In this document: piece after piece, positions 18,342 to 25,021 of the stretch
How the letters are laid out: each line of letters begins with the position of its first letter
How positions within the stretch are numbered: position 1 is the stretch's first letter
Translations under genes and position numbers: made by a program
Notes under the pieces: generated by a model
Databases searched by the model: none
What the model was told of the DNA's origin: nothing
What the model saw: only the letters and a program-made list of their open reading frames with translations
Source: Gracilimonas mengyeensis
GTDB lineage: Bacteria > Bacteroidota > Rhodothermia > Balneolales > Balneolaceae
Assembly: GCF_900182705.1 (NCBI RefSeq)
Contig: NZ_FXTP01000001.1
Span: forward strand, 310,001 to 374,000
DNA length: 64,000 nucleotides
Direction: 5' to 3'

Positions 18342-18800
18342 ATGAAAAAGCTCATTGACGTTTATCCCTACAAAATAAAGAATGGCGTTCCGCTGTTTCT
18401 TATTTTCAAACGTTCGTCTGGTAAGATATATGCCAATCAATGGCGGATGGTAGGCGGGAAAGTGAAGGAGGGTGAAGCCTATTGGGAAGCAGCCCTCCGT
18501 GAGCTTAAAGAAGAGACCGGGATCACTCCAACCAATTTTTGGACAATTCCCTCAGTGAATCAGTTTTATGAAGCCAAGACCGATTCCATACATTCAATTC
18601 CGGCCTTTGCTGCCGAAATTGATGCAAAAGCGGACATCGTTTTAGATGACGAACACAGTGAATACAAATGGATAGGGGTGGAAGGGATGGCGCCTTTCAT
18701 CAGCTGGCCCGAGCAACGGCGGCTTATCAAGCTGACCTATGATATTTTAACCGATGAATTTCTTGAAATCCTGCCCGAGTGGAACATCGACATCTCCTGA
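18342..18800 (+). CDS. Nudix hydrolase
   Basis: The 152-residue protein has a complete Nudix box, G39-x5-E45-x7-R53-E-L-x-E-E-x-G-I61, embedded in GGKVKEGEAYWEAALRELKE. Nudix enzymes hydrolyse nucleoside diphosphates linked to another group; the substrate cannot be inferred. The form resembles dihydroneopterin-triphosphate or dATP pyrophosphohydrolases (NudB-like), based only on size and the start of the chain. Its last 22 bases overlap the next gene, implying coupled translation. Confidence 0.88.
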   Translation: MKKLIDVYPYKIKNGVPLFLIFKRSSGKIYANQWRMVGGKVKEGEAYWEAALRELKEETGITPTNFWTIPSVNQFYEAKTDSIHSIPAFAAEIDAKADIVLDDEHSEYKWIGVEGMAPFISWPEQRRLIKLTYDILTDEFLEILPEWNIDIS

Positions 18801-20095
18801 TCGCCTTACTTTTTTGCCTGATCCCTGCCTTCGGGCTTGCTCAATCTTCTCAAGATTACGGGGATGATTACAGTTTGGAGTTTGTGCCAGATCTGTGGTA
18901 TAACGATGTGGATGGCATCAGGGTAGGCGTCCGCGTCCGGGGCGAGATGGAAGGAAGTTTTAATGATGGACCGCACCGACTAAATGCGGGCCTGTGGTTG
19001 GGAACGTGGTTTCCGGATCAGCCGGTATCCTATTATTTCTCTTTTACCGAACCGATTCCTTCTATCTCATCCTTTGGGAGTGAAGGCAGCCTGCAGCTGG
19101 AAACCAGCGTACGTACCGGTTTCAGCAAGCACGGCTTGTATTTCAACAAGCGATGGCAATTTGGCTTTGATGAACTGAAATATGTGGAATTCCGCACCGG
19201 GCTCAGCACTGAAAAAATGTTTGATGAGGAATACCGGCAATTTCCTGAGCATTGGGTTTTTAATGTGAACCAAGACCTGCCCCTTGACAGCCCGACCGGG
19301 CCGAGACCACGAGTTAAAGAGCAAATTCATTTATTGAATGCGAGCTTGTTGTTACACCAGCAGAATCTTTTGGGAACCTATTCGATTGATCTTGATTTCA
19401 AACAGCAACTAAATGAAAAGGTTCTGCCTTCATTCACACGGTTTGATGCAGAAATAACGCAACAGATTGTCTTAGGCAGCGGTTTTAAGCTGGATTTTAG
19501 GTCATTTTTTGGGATGGCAAACAAAGACGTTCCCTATCAGTATTCTTATTTATCCAGCATGCAATCCATGATTGGTTGGCTAGATCATGGTTTATCAAGA
19601 GCAAAGGGTACCATACCCATAAGTATGATGAATGAAGGGATTGTTCAGTTTACCGGAGGCCCTAATTTGAGGGGCTATTTGAATCAGGATGTAAAAGCAT
19701 TGAAGAGTAATGCTTTTATTCAGGGTATAGGTGCTGGCGATTATTATCTACTAAATGCTGTACTCAGCTTAAATGCCGAGTTGGATTATCCAAACCCTCT
19801 TCATAAAAAATTAAAATCTATCCCTTTTCTTGGAGACTTCTTAGCGATGAGGAGTTATATGTTTTATGATGTCGGTACCATGCCTGAACGAAGAGGTGGC
19901 AACTTGTTTGATGCACAAAAAAGTGATGCAGGAGCAGGTTTTGAGCTATCCATAAACATTCCCGATTATTTGGGTAAAGATCGTGGCCTTTTTATCCGAT
20001 ACGATATACCATTCTGGCTTTCTCATCCGGGCGGAGGAGAATCACATGTTGAATTCCGCCACTTAATTGGAATTGGAGCTTTAATCTCATTTTAA
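18779..20095 (+). CDS. Predicted outer-membrane beta-barrel protein
   Basis: The 438-residue protein has a signal peptide (HLLIALLFCLIPAFGLAQS) with cleavage expected after GLA. It then consists of alternating beta strands with many aromatic residues and finishes in ISF, the terminal aromatic typical of outer-membrane barrels. The segment LEFVPDLWYNDVDGIRVGVRVRG resembles the surface-antigen/BamA-like barrels that also form the C-terminus of some Bacteroidota M1 peptidases. Here no peptidase part is present. The ATG overlaps the Nudix gene by 22 bases. Function is unknown. Confidence 0.75.
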   Translation: MEHRHLLIALLFCLIPAFGLAQSSQDYGDDYSLEFVPDLWYNDVDGIRVGVRVRGEMEGSFNDGPHRLNAGLWLGTWFPDQPVSYYFSFTEPIPSISSFGSEGSLQLETSVRTGFSKHGLYFNKRWQFGFDELKYVEFRTGLSTEKMFDEEYRQFPEHWVFNVNQDLPLDSPTGPRPRVKEQIHLLNASLLLHQQNLLGTYSIDLDFKQQLNEKVLPSFTRFDAEITQQIVLGSGFKLDFRSFFGMANKDVPYQYSYLSSMQSMIGWLDHGLSRAKGTIPISMMNEGIVQFTGGPNLRGYLNQDVKALKSNAFIQGIGAGDYYLLNAVLSLNAELDYPNPLHKKLKSIPFLGDFLAMRSYMFYDVGTMPERRGGNLFDAQKSDAGAGFELSINIPDYLGKDRGLFIRYDIPFWLSHPGGGESHVEFRHLIGIGALISF

Positions 20096-20107: not shown

Positions 20108-21328
20108 ATGAAAATTCTGGTCATCAATTGCGGCAGTTCATCCATCAAGTACCAGCTTATTAATACCGAAAATCAGGAGTGCCTTTGTAAGGGACTGGTT
20201 GAACGTATTGGAGCCGTAACTTCAATTATCAAACAGGAATTCAAGGATGAGAAGCCGGTGAAGAAAACCATGGTTATTGAAAACCATGCGGCCGCGCTCA
20301 AAACCATTATGGAACTGTTGTTGGAGGCTGATAACGATCACCTGCATTCCCTGGATGAAATTGAAGCCGTAGGGCACCGCGTGGTACACGGGGGAGAGAC
20401 CTTCAAAGATTCCGTTCTTATTGATGAAGATGTGGAAGAAGCCATCCAGCAGGCCTTTGATATTGCACCGTTGCACAACCCACCAAACCTGGATGGTATC
20501 CGTGCAGCTAAAAAGCACTTGCCGGATGTACCTCACGTAGCGGTATTTGATACAGCCTTCCATCACTCCATACCCAAACATGCCTTTTTATATGGAATTC
20601 CAAACCGCCTGTATCGACGCTACAAAATTCGTAAATACGGGTTTCACGGAACCTCACATTATTACGTGAGCCGCAAGTATTACAACCTGTCTGATAAAGA
20701 CAAAGAAGGTTCCAAAATTATTACTTGTCACCTGGGTAACGGTTGCTCTATTGCTGCCATAAAGGATGGTGAATCCTACGATACCAGTATGGGTTTTTCA
20801 CCTTTGGAAGGGCTGATTATGGGAACCAGAAGTGGCGATATCGATCCCTCTATCTTGTTCTACCTCATAGAGAAAGAAGAATTATCTCTCGCAAACGTTC
20901 ATGCATTATTGAATAAACACAGTGGTCTGTTAGGCCTGAGTGGTTTTGCTGCCGATATGCGTGATTTACTGGAAGAAGCTGACCGTGGCGACCGTCGCTG
21001 CCAGGAAGCCATTGATGTATTCTGCTACAGGATTCGTAAGTATATTGGCTCCTATGTTGCTTCCATGAATGGGGTAGATGCCATCATCTTTACCGGAGGT
21101 ATTGGTGAGAACGCTTCACCTATCCGCGAAAAAGTGCTTAAGGAGATGGATTACCTTGGTATTGAAGTAGACCCGCAACGCAATGCTAACCTTGAAAAAG
21201 GACAGACCCAAATCCATACGGATAATTCTAAGGCCGAAGTACACGTTATACCCACCAACGAAGAACTGGTAATAGCGATTGATGCCGCCAAAATTGCGAC
21301 GGCATCCAAACAAACACCATGGGCCTAA
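20108..21328 (+). CDS. ackA: Acetate kinase
   Basis: The 406-residue enzyme (EC 2.7.2.1) interconverts acetyl phosphate and acetate with ATP formation. ILVINCGSSSIKYQ, GHRVVHGGE, the histidine-containing FHGTSHYYVS, and ITCHLGNGCSIAAI with the following MGFSPLEGLIMGTRSGDIDP are textbook AckA signatures. Length is normal. The stop overlaps the next gene by 10 bases. Its metabolic partner pta lies 2.7 kb downstream, separated by two unrelated membrane-associated genes on the same strand. Confidence 0.98.
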   Translation: MKILVINCGSSSIKYQLINTENQECLCKGLVERIGAVTSIIKQEFKDEKPVKKTMVIENHAAALKTIMELLLEADNDHLHSLDEIEAVGHRVVHGGETFKDSVLIDEDVEEAIQQAFDIAPLHNPPNLDGIRAAKKHLPDVPHVAVFDTAFHHSIPKHAFLYGIPNRLYRRYKIRKYGFHGTSHYYVSRKYYNLSDKDKEGSKIITCHLGNGCSIAAIKDGESYDTSMGFSPLEGLIMGTRSGDIDPSILFYLIEKEELSLANVHALLNKHSGLLGLSGFAADMRDLLEEADRGDRRCQEAIDVFCYRIRKYIGSYVASMNGVDAIIFTGGIGENASPIREKVLKEMDYLGIEVDPQRNANLEKGQTQIHTDNSKAEVHVIPTNEELVIAIDAAKIATASKQTPWA

Positions 21329-23052
21329 ATCAACGCGCTTATTTTGCACTCACTTCTTTAATCCTGGCTTTACTCATCCAGGGCTGTTCGGTCACCAGCT
21401 GGACGGTAGTGGATGAGGGAGCCCGGGATACCGAAGATTTTGAAATCATTGATACCCGGTATCTCTTACAAAGCACTAACGGAATAAACCCGGAACAACC
21501 CCTAGCGTATTTTGACCTCTACAGGATAAATACTTACGAATACACCCAACGGGTTCAAACAGAACGATATGTACAGCAGTATCGTCCACGCCTTGGCTAC
21601 GTATTACTTGGGGCAGCAGGGGCAGGGCTTTCCTATTACGCAGCCTTTTCTGATCAGTTGTTATCCCGGCCTACGGATACTCAGCGTTATGCCCTGATGG
21701 GCGCAGGGACTTTGCTCACCGGTGTTTCTTTCCTCAATATGAAACCGGTGGGAGAACCCAAGAAAACAGGAGAAAGCCGTTTGCTTCGCCAAACCGGCAC
21801 CGAGACCGAGGTTGATACCTTAGCATCTGATCCTTACCAGGAAGAAACGGCACGTCTTCGGGTTCGGTACAATGGTGATATGCTTATTCAAAGTGATAAC
21901 TGGCCGTTTGATGGGAACCGGCTAAGCATCAATCTGGCAGATAATATCGATGCCTCTATTTTTGAGGAAGAGCCTGCAGAAAACCTGGTAGTTGAAGCCA
22001 CTTACGACACACTACAGAAAATCATAGAAGTACCGGTTGCTTCTGTTTTTGAACGGTTTGTAGTAGTAGATAAACCGCTCACCGCTTTACGGAATGAACC
22101 TGAGGTAAACCCGGACAATGTGCTCAACGACCTGGCTGAAGGCAGTCAGCTTAAACTTGTTTCCAGACAAGGGGACTGGTTTAAGGTTCTATATGGAATT
22201 TCGGAAACCTGGATTGCTGCAAATGATGTGAGAACCATTTGGCGTCCTTCTGATTTTGCATCGGACCTTTCCGTAATTGCAATTCCCAACGTTCCTTTTG
22301 GCAGTGTAGATGTAGAACAGGATATCCCCGTCTTAGCTGAAGATAATAGCTCATCAAGCGCCCTTATTTTATCTAATTTCAGGTATGATGGTGCTTTTTC
22401 GGAGAAAAATTATGGGCAACGTGATGTACAGCTTATGGAGGCTTACTTTCAGAATGCCTTTAGGGTTCGTGATAATTTCCTGGCAACAATAACCAATACC
22501 TCAAGTCAGGGGATGGTAGCCCGGAGCATCCGGCGTTTACAGTCAGCCGCATCGGATTCTTCTCATACATTGTATGTATACCTTGGTGGCTTTACAGTTT
22601 TAAAAGATGATCAACTTCATCTTGCCGGTCCCGAATACACCGACGACACCCCTAAGTCAATAAACCTTCATTGGCTATTTGAACAGCTGGGTGCTATAGA
22701 AAATGGTCGGATTATCGTATTTGCTGATTTCGATTTCTTCAATTTTGCTCAGGATGATGAGATATTACAAGAGACCGTTGAACCATTAATCTCTCAAAAC
22801 CCATCATCTGCAGTCATATTCAGTTCAATCCTGAATCAACAATCAGGAATTTACTCTTCCCCCGGCGGTGATCAAAAACGCCATAGTATTTTTACCTATT
22901 TCCTGGCTGATGCCTTCAAAAATGGAAATACGTACATATCGGATATCATGAGTTACCTGGATCGTAATGTTACCTTTATATCCCGCAGCCTCTACGAACG
23001 CCCCCAAACCCCGATACTTTTTGGTAACAATCAGCTGGAAATTGTGAACTGA
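21319..23052 (+). CDS. Lipoprotein with SH3-like and catalytically dead caspase (C14) domain
   Basis: The 577-residue chain has a lipobox (LLIQGC) and is probably anchored in a periplasmic membrane leaflet. A short hydrophobic segment (GYVLLGAAGAGLSYYAAF) may form a hairpin. Residues about 249-308 look like a bacterial SH3 domain (GDWFKVLYGISETWIAANDVR). Residues about 350-570 follow the caspase/peptidase C14 order: SALILSNFRYD, RDVQLMEAYF, the strand before the catalytic His, the strand before the catalytic Cys, and HSIFTYFLADAFKNG. The catalytic dyad is missing: the GHG motif reads G423-G-F, and DxC reads D470-F-D472. It is therefore a predicted pseudo-enzyme. Its start overlaps ackA and its stop overlaps the next gene. 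Confidence 0.75.
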   Translation: MGLNQRAYFALTSLILALLIQGCSVTSWTVVDEGARDTEDFEIIDTRYLLQSTNGINPEQPLAYFDLYRINTYEYTQRVQTERYVQQYRPRLGYVLLGAAGAGLSYYAAFSDQLLSRPTDTQRYALMGAGTLLTGVSFLNMKPVGEPKKTGESRLLRQTGTETEVDTLASDPYQEETARLRVRYNGDMLIQSDNWPFDGNRLSINLADNIDASIFEEEPAENLVVEATYDTLQKIIEVPVASVFERFVVVDKPLTALRNEPEVNPDNVLNDLAEGSQLKLVSRQGDWFKVLYGISETWIAANDVRTIWRPSDFASDLSVIAIPNVPFGSVDVEQDIPVLAEDNSSSSALILSNFRYDGAFSEKNYGQRDVQLMEAYFQNAFRVRDNFLATITNTSSQGMVARSIRRLQSAASDSSHTLYVYLGGFTVLKDDQLHLAGPEYTDDTPKSINLHWLFEQLGAIENGRIIVFADFDFFNFAQDDEILQETVEPLISQNPSSAVIFSSILNQQSGIYSSPGGDQKRHSIFTYFLADAFKNGNTYISDIMSYLDRNVTFISRSLYERPQTPILFGNNQLEIVN

Positions 23053-23921
23053 TGGCATTGATCTACATTGCCTTAAGTATTGGTTGCTCACTCATTTTGG
23101 CCCAAATCTTAAAACTGGCTGAAAACCAGAAATTGAGTGTACTGCATGTGCTGGTTAGCAATTATGCGGCCGGATGCCTCATCAGTTTGTGGAATGCCCC
23201 GGAATGGGGAGGCACTTCCTTTTTTCCAGAAACAGCAAATCTTGGTTGGGGAGTAACTACAACCGTACTATTATTGGGCTTGGTATTTATTGCCAATCTG
23301 CTGGTTTACAGCAAATCTATCCACCGGGTGGGGATGGGAGTGAGCATAGCCGCCATGCGGATGTCACTGGTTTTTCCCATTGGAGTGAGCCTGTTTGTAT
23401 TTGGGGAACAACTGGTAAGCATTCGTTATATCGGCATTTTAGTAGCCTTAGCTTCTCTACTTTTGATGGTACCGCGTATACGCACAAAAAGCATTTCCGG
23501 CGTTTCCGATGCCTGGTTGCCTGTACTCATATTTGTGATGACCGGTGTGGCCGATACCGGAATGAAGGTATATGAGCGGTTGTTTTCAGCGCAGATATCT
23601 GAGGACTTATTTGTTTCCGGTATTTTTCTGGTTTCCTTTTTAATCGGTGGACTGGTATTGCTCAAACGGGGTGAATACCAAATTACTTGGAAAGAAGCGA
23701 TGTATGGTGTGGTGGCCGGGCTTGTAAACCTGTATTCGTCTATATTTTTACTATATGCCCTAAAAATGATGCCGGGCTCCGTAGTATTCCCTTTGGTAAA
23801 TGTCAGTCTGGTAGTGTTCGGCACGTTTATTGGGGTCTGGTTCTGGAATGATAAACCTTCTGGCAAGCAATGGACCGGGCTGGCTATGGCTGTTGTTTCT
23901 ATATTTTTGTTGTTAGGTTGA
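23052..23921 (+). CDS. EamA/DMT family transporter
   Basis: The 289-residue protein is almost entirely hydrophobic, with about ten membrane spans arranged as two repeats, as in the drug/metabolite transporter superfamily. The end, PSGKQWTGLAMAVVSIFLLLG, is typical for EamA proteins. Its ATG overlaps the stop of the pseudo-caspase gene (TGATG), so both are translated together with ackA. The substrate is unknown; export of a small metabolite is the usual assumption for the family. Confidence 0.88.
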   Translation: MALIYIALSIGCSLILAQILKLAENQKLSVLHVLVSNYAAGCLISLWNAPEWGGTSFFPETANLGWGVTTTVLLLGLVFIANLLVYSKSIHRVGMGVSIAAMRMSLVFPIGVSLFVFGEQLVSIRYIGILVALASLLLMVPRIRTKSISGVSDAWLPVLIFVMTGVADTGMKVYERLFSAQISEDLFVSGIFLVSFLIGGLVLLKRGEYQITWKEAMYGVVAGLVNLYSSIFLLYALKMMPGSVVFPLVNVSLVVFGTFIGVWFWNDKPSGKQWTGLAMAVVSIFLLLG

Positions 23922-24067: not shown

Positions 24068-25021
24068 ATGGATATTATACAGGACATTCGAAATCGTGCA
24101 CAATCATCACTAAAAACTATTGTATTACCACGCTCTTCTGATCCACGTGTGATACAAGCCGCAGAATTTCTGCATAACGAGAAGCTGGTTCGCCCTGTTC
24201 TTATTAAAAACGAGGGAGCGGTCATTCCGGAAGAACTCACTATTGTTGATCCCGAAACAGACGATAACCTTAAAAAATATGCCGATGCTTTCTATGAGCG
24301 CCGAAAGCATAAAGGCATCACCAGAGAAGAAGCCGTAAAGACCGTTAAAGATCCCCTTTATTTTGCTGCTTCCATGATTGCAGCCGGAGATGCTGACGGC
24401 GCCGTTGCAGGTTCTGTTTCAACAACCGGAGAAGTGCTGCGGGCAGCTATTCAAGCCGTGGGGCTCAAAGAAGGCTCCAATGTGGTTTCCAGTACGTTTT
24501 TGATGAGTTTTGATGATGGCCGCGTGTTCACGTATGGTGATTGTGCGGTAGTGCCTTATCCAAATTCTGAGCAACTGGCTACTATCGCGATGGACTCAGC
24601 TCAAACGCACAAGAAAGTGACCGGGAAGGATCAAAAAGTATCTATGCTATCTTTTTCAACCAAAGGAAGTGCGGTTCACGAGCGCATTGAGCTGGTGACC
24701 AAAGCACTGGAAATTGTTAAATCCCACAATCTGGATTTTCCCGTAGATGGCGAGCTGCAATTTGATGCCTCCATCGTTCCGGAAATTGCCAAGCGCAAAG
24801 CACCTGATTCAGAAGTAGCGGGCAAAGCAAACGTTTTTATTTTCCCTAATCTGGATGCTGGTAATATTGGCTATAAAATCACGGAACGTCTGGCTGGGGC
24901 TACCGCTACGGGCCCAATCATTCAAGGCCTCGCCAAACCCATGATGGACCTCTCACGTGGTTGCAGCTGGGAAGATATTGTAAATACCGCTTGCGTAAGT
25001 GCTTTGATGTGTGAAGTTTGA
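24068..25021 (+). CDS. pta: Phosphate acetyltransferase (short form)
   Basis: The 317-residue enzyme (EC 2.3.1.8) exchanges CoA for phosphate on acetyl-CoA, giving acetyl phosphate for AckA. IVLPRSSDPRVIQAAEFL, the ADGAVAGSVSTTGEVLRAA segment and NVFIFPNLDAGNIGYK are family signatures. The short form lacks the regulatory N-terminal domains of E. coli Pta. It is preceded by a 146-bp gap after the transporter gene and followed by a clear terminator, so it closes the ackA region. Confidence 0.96.
   Translation: MDIIQDIRNRAQSSLKTIVLPRSSDPRVIQAAEFLHNEKLVRPVLIKNEGAVIPEELTIVDPETDDNLKKYADAFYERRKHKGITREEAVKTVKDPLYFAASMIAAGDADGAVAGSVSTTGEVLRAAIQAVGLKEGSNVVSSTFLMSFDDGRVFTYGDCAVVPYPNSEQLATIAMDSAQTHKKVTGKDQKVSMLSFSTKGSAVHERIELVTKALEIVKSHNLDFPVDGELQFDASIVPEIAKRKAPDSEVAGKANVFIFPNLDAGNIGYKITERLAGATATGPIIQGLAKPMMDLSRGCSWEDIVNTACVSALMCEV

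Follow-up and report, generated by a model that had tools for sequence, protein, structure and literature searches.

A lipoprotein with a caspase fold lacking the catalytic cysteine, encoded between ackA and an EamA transporter gene in Gracilimonas mengyeensis

Introduction

Discussions of prokaryotic caspase relatives usually treat them as kin of cell-death proteases, and a gene of Gracilimonas mengyeensis raises the question of what such a fold may be kept for once its cutting residues are gone. The gene is an open reading frame (ORF) for 577 amino acids at positions 21319–23052 of a 64,000-nucleotide stretch (the window; contig NZ_FXTP01000001.1, positions 310,001 to 374,000), located, like all features given below, on the plus strand, and it has matches in 44 of the 57 genomes searched, its own included. 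A sequence-only reading of the window had described the product as a lipid-anchored caspase relative without catalytic dyad, coupled to acetate kinase and possibly linked to acetate or acetyl-phosphate physiology. Our computations show a lipoprotein whose C-terminal domain has a caspase fold, a lack of the catalytic Cys throughout its family, and purifying selection on the gene. Most of a bacterial order keeps this fold under strong selection outside the cytoplasm, and the purpose of a caspase fold without proteolysis becomes testable in one small protein. Our proposal, to which we assign about an even chance, is that of a pseudo-orthocaspase outside the cytoplasm whose ligand, a basic peptide or a cell-wall partner, is bound but left uncut, and which has no tie to acetate metabolism; the anatomy of the protein is held at higher confidence than this explanation as a whole.

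Fold and catalytic dyad

The C-terminal domain (residues 341–577; 22339–23049) is predicted to adopt a caspase (C14) fold. The window protein itself scores 19.9 bits against PF00656, below the cut-off of 21.4 bits, and 24 of 38 orthologues match this profile (best 3.9e-12). The predicted structure of residues 341–577 matches caspase-fold chains with Z values of up to 19.2, the latter obtained for Arabidopsis metacaspase 4 (root-mean-square deviation 3.0 over 211 residues) and followed by 18.9 for procaspase-1, while the top Foldseek match is the caspase domain of MALT1. The MALT1 paracaspase and plant metacaspase 4, both active eukaryotic His-Cys enzymes, are among the best structural matches, but share about 7–11% identity with the domain. 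Judged from the profile matches and the predicted models, the assignment of a caspase fold is beyond chance, as the earlier reading had surmised.

To locate the dyad, the domain was aligned in 93 full-length orthologues, leaving out four partial sequences (G041, G074, and G113 at contig ends, and a 65-residue piece in G082) as well as a weak match in G011, and in 23 caspases with intact dyad. The latter comprise 22 non-family caspase-domain loci from a class-wide search plus locus L044; they do not cover every caspase match of the class, and several of them belong to genomes of the same order. The slot that aligns with the catalytic His of the 23 intact caspases is F425 (22591–22593), with His in 11 of the 93 orthologues; the previously named G424 was off by one and is the adjacent glycine, present in 92/93 orthologues and 22/23 intact caspases. 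A glycine next to the catalytic His is described as a structural constant of every clan CD family (PMC4357240). The Cys slot is D472 (22732–22734), the residue that had been named, and is occupied across the 93 orthologues by D (59), E (18), Q (6), S (4), F (2), and M, I, H, or N (1 each), thus by an acidic residue in 77 and by Cys in none. Neither does any of the 93 carry a Cys anywhere between positions 466 and 478. An intact dyad was found in 0/93 orthologues, as against His and Cys in the same columns in 23/23 controls, so that the dyad is absent throughout the orthologous family. In 87 of the 93 the lipid-bearing Cys is the sole cysteine, and in those no other Cys could act as the nucleophile. 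The family hence lacks the His-Cys dyad of an active orthocaspase and combines a p20-type domain with a substituted dyad, as pseudo-orthocaspases do. Proteolytic activity is probably lacking, going by the alignment, and with the cutting residues gone the protein probably holds or senses something instead of cutting, in agreement with the non-catalytic role suggested before.

In a tree of the domain, the 93 orthologues cluster as one group without an intact member, albeit a poorly supported one (0.51), and the His-bearing orthologues, 11 in number, form a single clade (support 0.93 in the domain tree, 0.97 in the full-length tree). Because of these two features, the Cys was probably lost once and early, before the family diversified, and the His later, outside the His-bearing clade. 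Such a stepwise loss, with the Cys gone everywhere and the His surviving in a single 11-member clade, is what a decaying protease whose function is gone might also display, and close homologues with an intact dyad had been named as pointing to such decay. The ratio of non-synonymous to synonymous substitution rates (dN/dS; Nei-Gojobori) is, however, 0.052–0.149 in those pairs (11 of 15) whose dS could be measured, no internal stop is present in any of the listed family matches, and the gene occurs through most of the order. Low dN/dS indicates a protein in use, and decay, which it contradicts, was rejected as exceedingly improbable.

Pocket and relation to known pseudo-orthocaspases

Pseudo-orthocaspases are reported to retain the S1 residues corresponding to Asp95 and Asp211 of the trypanosomal metacaspase TbMC2, alias TbMCA2 (PMC6426788), and the same metacaspase S1-binding positions are given in PMC4357240. 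Their equivalents here, set by alignment position and structural element (alpha1, L4) rather than by superposed coordinates, are D369 (22423–22425; D in 75/93 orthologues and 23/23 intact caspases) for Asp95 and D470 (22726–22728; D in 91/93 orthologues, E in two, and D in 23/23 intact caspases) for Asp211. The family thereby shares the conserved acidic specificity positions of pseudo-orthocaspases.

The acids D470 and D472 also bring up another reading, namely that they constitute a different active site, for example for metal-dependent or aspartic hydrolysis. An acid at position 472 in 77/93 and at position 470 in 93/93 orthologues would suit such chemistry, but position 472 is Q, S, F, M, I, H, or N in the other 16, and D470 is Asp in the 23 intact caspases as well, where it is a pocket residue. 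We therefore regard a new catalytic center as improbable.

Pseudo-orthocaspases are a described class, accounting for 858 of 9,994 bacterial orthocaspases and, in Bacteroidetes, for 10 of 1078 sequences; 90% of the known ones are alphaproteobacterial or cyanobacterial, and the commonest pair at the dyad positions is Tyr/Ser (Klemencic et al. 2019, PMC6426788). According to a survey of 2012, the substituting residue is as a rule Ser or Tyr (PMC3501461). Knock-out of the Synechocystis member SyOC was reported to increase tolerance to oxidative stress (PMC7889975). The present family resembles this class in its p20-type fold, the replaced His-Cys dyad, the acidic pocket positions, and clade-wide conservation, but differs from it by Asp or Glu in the Cys slot in 77/93 sequences and by its construction as a lipoprotein with hairpin, immunoglobulin (Ig)-like, and SH3b parts. 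In the open-licence literature we found no description of the construction as a lipoprotein, of an acid in the Cys slot, or of the order-wide conservation, nor any literature on caspases in Balneolaceae or Gracilimonas. The earlier statement that no system of this composition had been described is thus fair for the architecture but not for the pseudo-orthocaspase class as such; as far as the literature found goes, the three former features are new and the class is known.

A catalytically dead caspase relative might also serve active caspases. FLIP has its effect on active caspases within its own cell, and the family could by analogy be a decoy that regulates such an enzyme. Eight genomes of the order indeed have a further PF00656 match (G001, G004, G007, G027, G032, G065, G070, and G073), with an intact dyad in the seven that were aligned. 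Most genomes of the order covered by the class-wide PF00656 search have no further match, however, and none was found in the window's genome, so that the gene is kept there without such a partner. Human FLIP(L) is comparable as a caspase relative without catalytic activity (PMC7586951), and unlike it the protein studied here stands without a second PF00656 match in its own genome. We consider a decoy function of this kind highly improbable.

The nearest point of comparison within the genus is an orthocaspase encoded in two of its genomes (L044 and L045), which likewise has a caspase domain (PF00656, 9e-15) and, by eye, a lipobox-like start. Its similarity to the pseudo-caspase family is weak but clear (E 6e-9 and 4e-8), but the match is limited to residues 329–572, no SH3 profile matches, YSGHG and LDACFSG are both intact where read, in L044, and the L044 protein is of 417 amino acids and encoded elsewhere in the genome (5323–6576 of locus L044, minus strand), beside two small genes that by eye also have lipobox-like starts.

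Protein anatomy

The N-terminus is a signal peptide ending in the lipidated Cys23 (21319–21387). As read from the alignment, this Cys is present in 93/93 orthologues, preceded by S, A, or G in 87/93 and followed by Ser or Thr at +1 in 93/93, the family pattern of a lipobox; none of the 93 has an acidic residue at +1 to +5. By the lipoprotein sorting rules of E. coli and Bacteroides, absence of an acid near the lipid-bearing Cys would place the protein at the outer membrane, on the side that faces the periplasm.

Downstream of Cys23, two long beta strands (about residues 25–52 and 62–90; 21388–21588) are predicted both in the full model and in a block folded alone, there with a predicted local distance difference test score (pLDDT) of 90–96. 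They lead into a hydrophobic Gly/Ala-rich hairpin (residues 92–141; 21592–21741) of two predicted helices (92–110 and 120–137; mean Kyte-Doolittle values 1.10 and 0.91 over 93 sequences), followed by a third long strand (residues 141–169; 21739–21825) seen in the full and N-terminal models. Strands of 28–29 residues would be about 9–10 nm long if straight; their hydropathy alternates little in strands one and three and more in strand two. Since the topology brings the lipid-bearing Cys and the hairpin to the same end of the strands, we infer a membrane-anchored stalk. An Ig-like beta region (about residues 178–238; 21850–22032) comes next, assigned from predicted strands and Ig-type beta-sandwich matches, the best of which (VIA-align, part of TEP1r) has a marginal Z of 8.7 over 93 residues spanning about 45–240, strand ends included. 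An SH3b domain (about residues 251–310; 22069–22248) precedes the caspase fold. The SH3_3 profile matches 11 of 38 orthologues (best 5e-7), which places the domain in the SH3 group at the family level, and no SH3 profile matches the window protein itself, where the domain is assigned from the alignment and from model strands, with W287 and W308 kept in at least 90% of the orthologues. The SH3 domain and lipid anchor proposed earlier were thus upheld, to which the hairpin, the long-strand N-terminal part, and the Ig-like region have now been added.

The full AlphaFold2 model (19 sequences) has a mean pLDDT of 79.8 and a predicted template modelling score (pTM) of 0.47, with pLDDT below 50 in loops 315–330, 505–520, and 554–562; the N-terminal part folded alone (L123 excluded) reached a pLDDT of 90.4 and a pTM of 0.59. 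A Foldseek search of the N-terminal fold against the PDB returned nothing at E 1e-3 or better (best 0.096), so that, in the structure searches made, the predicted strand-and-hairpin base of the putative receptor is without a confident PDB match. Sequence searches of the PDB gave no significant match, and scans with PHROGs and PADLOC gave none. A chain of the type IV secretion outer-membrane core (Foldseek E 0.24) had brought up the idea of an oligomeric pore, which we do not claim.

Distribution and selection

Of 217 genomes of the class, 100 had a match to a full-length profile; 96 of these carry the family, all from the same order and four with partial sequences; the remaining four matches (G011, G158, G210, and G212) are weak or confined to the caspase domain. 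With a profile of the N-terminal stalk, 49 of 394 genomes of the phylum were matched, again all from the same order and each within a reading frame that stays open for 563 amino acids or more. A scan of named contigs gave 19 loci, 17 of them in records named Gracilimonas, Balneola, Balneolaceae, or Balneolales, one in a record named 'Rhodothermia bacterium', and one in a Marinimicrobia record in which 56 residues only were matched. As the NCBI taxonomy places Balneolaceae within the order Balneolales, the named relatives indicate that the full-length family is, within the searches made, confined to this one order.

Proposed role

The proposed pseudo-orthocaspase might work as follows. Lipid and hydrophobic hairpin would serve as the membrane anchor, the outer membrane's inner leaflet being the most likely site, and the long strands would keep the SH3b and pseudo-caspase domains at a distance from it, within the periplasm. 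There, the SH3b domain may touch peptidoglycan, and the pseudo-caspase domain with its acidic S1-type pocket may capture a putative Arg/Lys-bearing peptide or partner protein that is left uncut, such that the protein would act as a sensor, tether, or scaffold. The outer-membrane side, the stalk geometry, the wall contact, and the ligand are the conjectural parts of this scheme. A bolder and rather unlikely version is an order-wide receptor made from a dead caspase, whose pocket, re-tuned through the acid that took the place of the Cys, would capture periplasmic basic peptides that the receptor then reports to the envelope; if true, the caspase fold would here serve neither in the cytoplasm nor in cell death.

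Several observations weigh against the proposal. D369 is replaced by T or S in 16/93 orthologues and by V or G in 2/93, and the neighboring R368, Arg in 92/93 orthologues versus 3/23 intact caspases, could either shape the pocket or plug it, the latter abolishing ligand binding. Comparing the C-terminal 40%, a split by length that roughly covers the caspase domain, with the rest of the protein, dN was higher in nine and lower in six of 15 pairs (0.7 to 2.5 times); wherever dS was measured too, C-terminal dN stays far lower than it. One family of the order, with 11 listed genomes, lacks the gene altogether, as do G023, G029, G106, and G110, so it is dispensable there. The stalk was derived from predicted models with the pTM values given above, in which two loops of the caspase domain (505–520 and 554–562) fall below a pLDDT of 50, and the outer-membrane placement draws on sorting rules from other bacteria. 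The gene-less family and the His-retaining clade at the same time offer natural controls.

Genomic neighborhood and the acetate question

In the window, the gene overlaps ackA (20108–21328; TIGR00016) by 10 bases and the gene for an EamA-family transporter (23052–23921; PF00892) by 1 base, and pta follows beyond the latter (24068–25021), an arrangement that was confirmed as first read. Upstream of ackA lies a gene for an outer-membrane beta-barrel-like protein (18779–20095) without a significant Pfam family match; its LRGY and FxDAG motifs align with Omp85 barrels of the clade (hhalign probability 61.7), and hhalign gave a probability of 29.8 against a second Omp85 type. Among 92 loci, the pseudo-caspase gene is directly preceded by the barrel in 44, by ackA in 38, by another gene in seven, and by a contig edge in three, none of the 44 barrel-adjacent loci having ackA in between; directly downstream are EamA in 72, pta in 11, other genes in eight, and sufB in one. 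An overlap with the pseudo-caspase gene was seen for ackA in 33 of the 38 adjacent loci and for EamA in 62 of 72; our script started ORFs at the first possible codon, and two of the ackA overlaps (50 and 259 bases) are probably a matter of start-codon choice. EamA is the most frequent adjacent neighbor, and ackA, EamA, and the barrel gene are all dissociable.

A lipoprotein that works with AckA and Pta as a sensor of acetate or acetyl phosphate could account for the frequent ackA overlap and for the presence of pta within the fetched stretch in 75/92 loci. Over 57 genomes, however, 34 had both ackA and the pseudo-caspase gene, 10 the latter only, nine ackA only, and four neither (Fisher p 0.71), so 10 of 44 gene-bearing genomes are without an ackA match and 9 of 13 gene-less ones have ackA; in seven further gene-bearing genomes ackA is located elsewhere. 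The co-occurrence with ackA expected of a component of an ackA-pta operon is thus not seen, and at loci without ackA the pseudo-caspase gene stays in place. The stretch from greA to suf is largely conserved as a whole, from which the ackA adjacency appears as general synteny. AckA and Pta are cytoplasmic, as opposed to a lipoprotein. In the gene-less family, four ackA regions have ackA without barrel, EamA, pta, or pseudo-caspase genes within the fetched stretch, and one barrel region keeps the barrel with NUDIX and greA (one of these stretches is short, ending at a contig end). Given the null co-occurrence, the link to acetate was rejected, and we hold it to be about as improbable as a new catalytic center. 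At five ackA-less loci (L035, L037, L040, L041, and L042), an acetate–CoA ligase gene, its family confirmed for L037, is located divergently upstream; nothing else still hints at acetate, and this arrangement is possibly due to chance.

The flanking genes suggest yet another role, in which the protein would partner the barrel or the EamA transporter as a cap or tether in the periplasm, within a unit for export or for outer-membrane assembly. The frequency of both as direct neighbors, the EamA overlaps, and the Omp85-like motifs of the barrel would fit. Family genomes without the pseudo-caspase nevertheless keep the barrel in 8/9 and EamA in 9/9 cases, and in G050 (C253), G052 (C127), and G011 (C230) the barrel and EamA matches lie 12–24 bases apart with only the pseudo-caspase missing, a natural clean absence. 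Conversely, 15 of the 44 gene-bearing genomes are without an EamA match and five without a barrel match. Over the 57 genomes there was no association for EamA (29 both, 15 pseudo-caspase only, 10 EamA only, three neither; Fisher p 0.52) or the barrel (39 both, five pseudo-caspase only, nine barrel only, four neither; p 0.19). Neither gene is supported as an obligate partner on these grounds, and we consider partnership doubtful, though clearly less remote than the acetate link. The neighborhood is a slowly changing stretch in which no neighbor is obligate.

A few details of the flanking genes may be added. In G052 (C28, 1294–2153), ackA appears as two partial matches end to end, representing a broken gene or a sequencing error. 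The barrel-like gene of the window overlaps a NUDIX gene, and at locus L058 two tandem copies of the barrel gene are found upstream of ackA.

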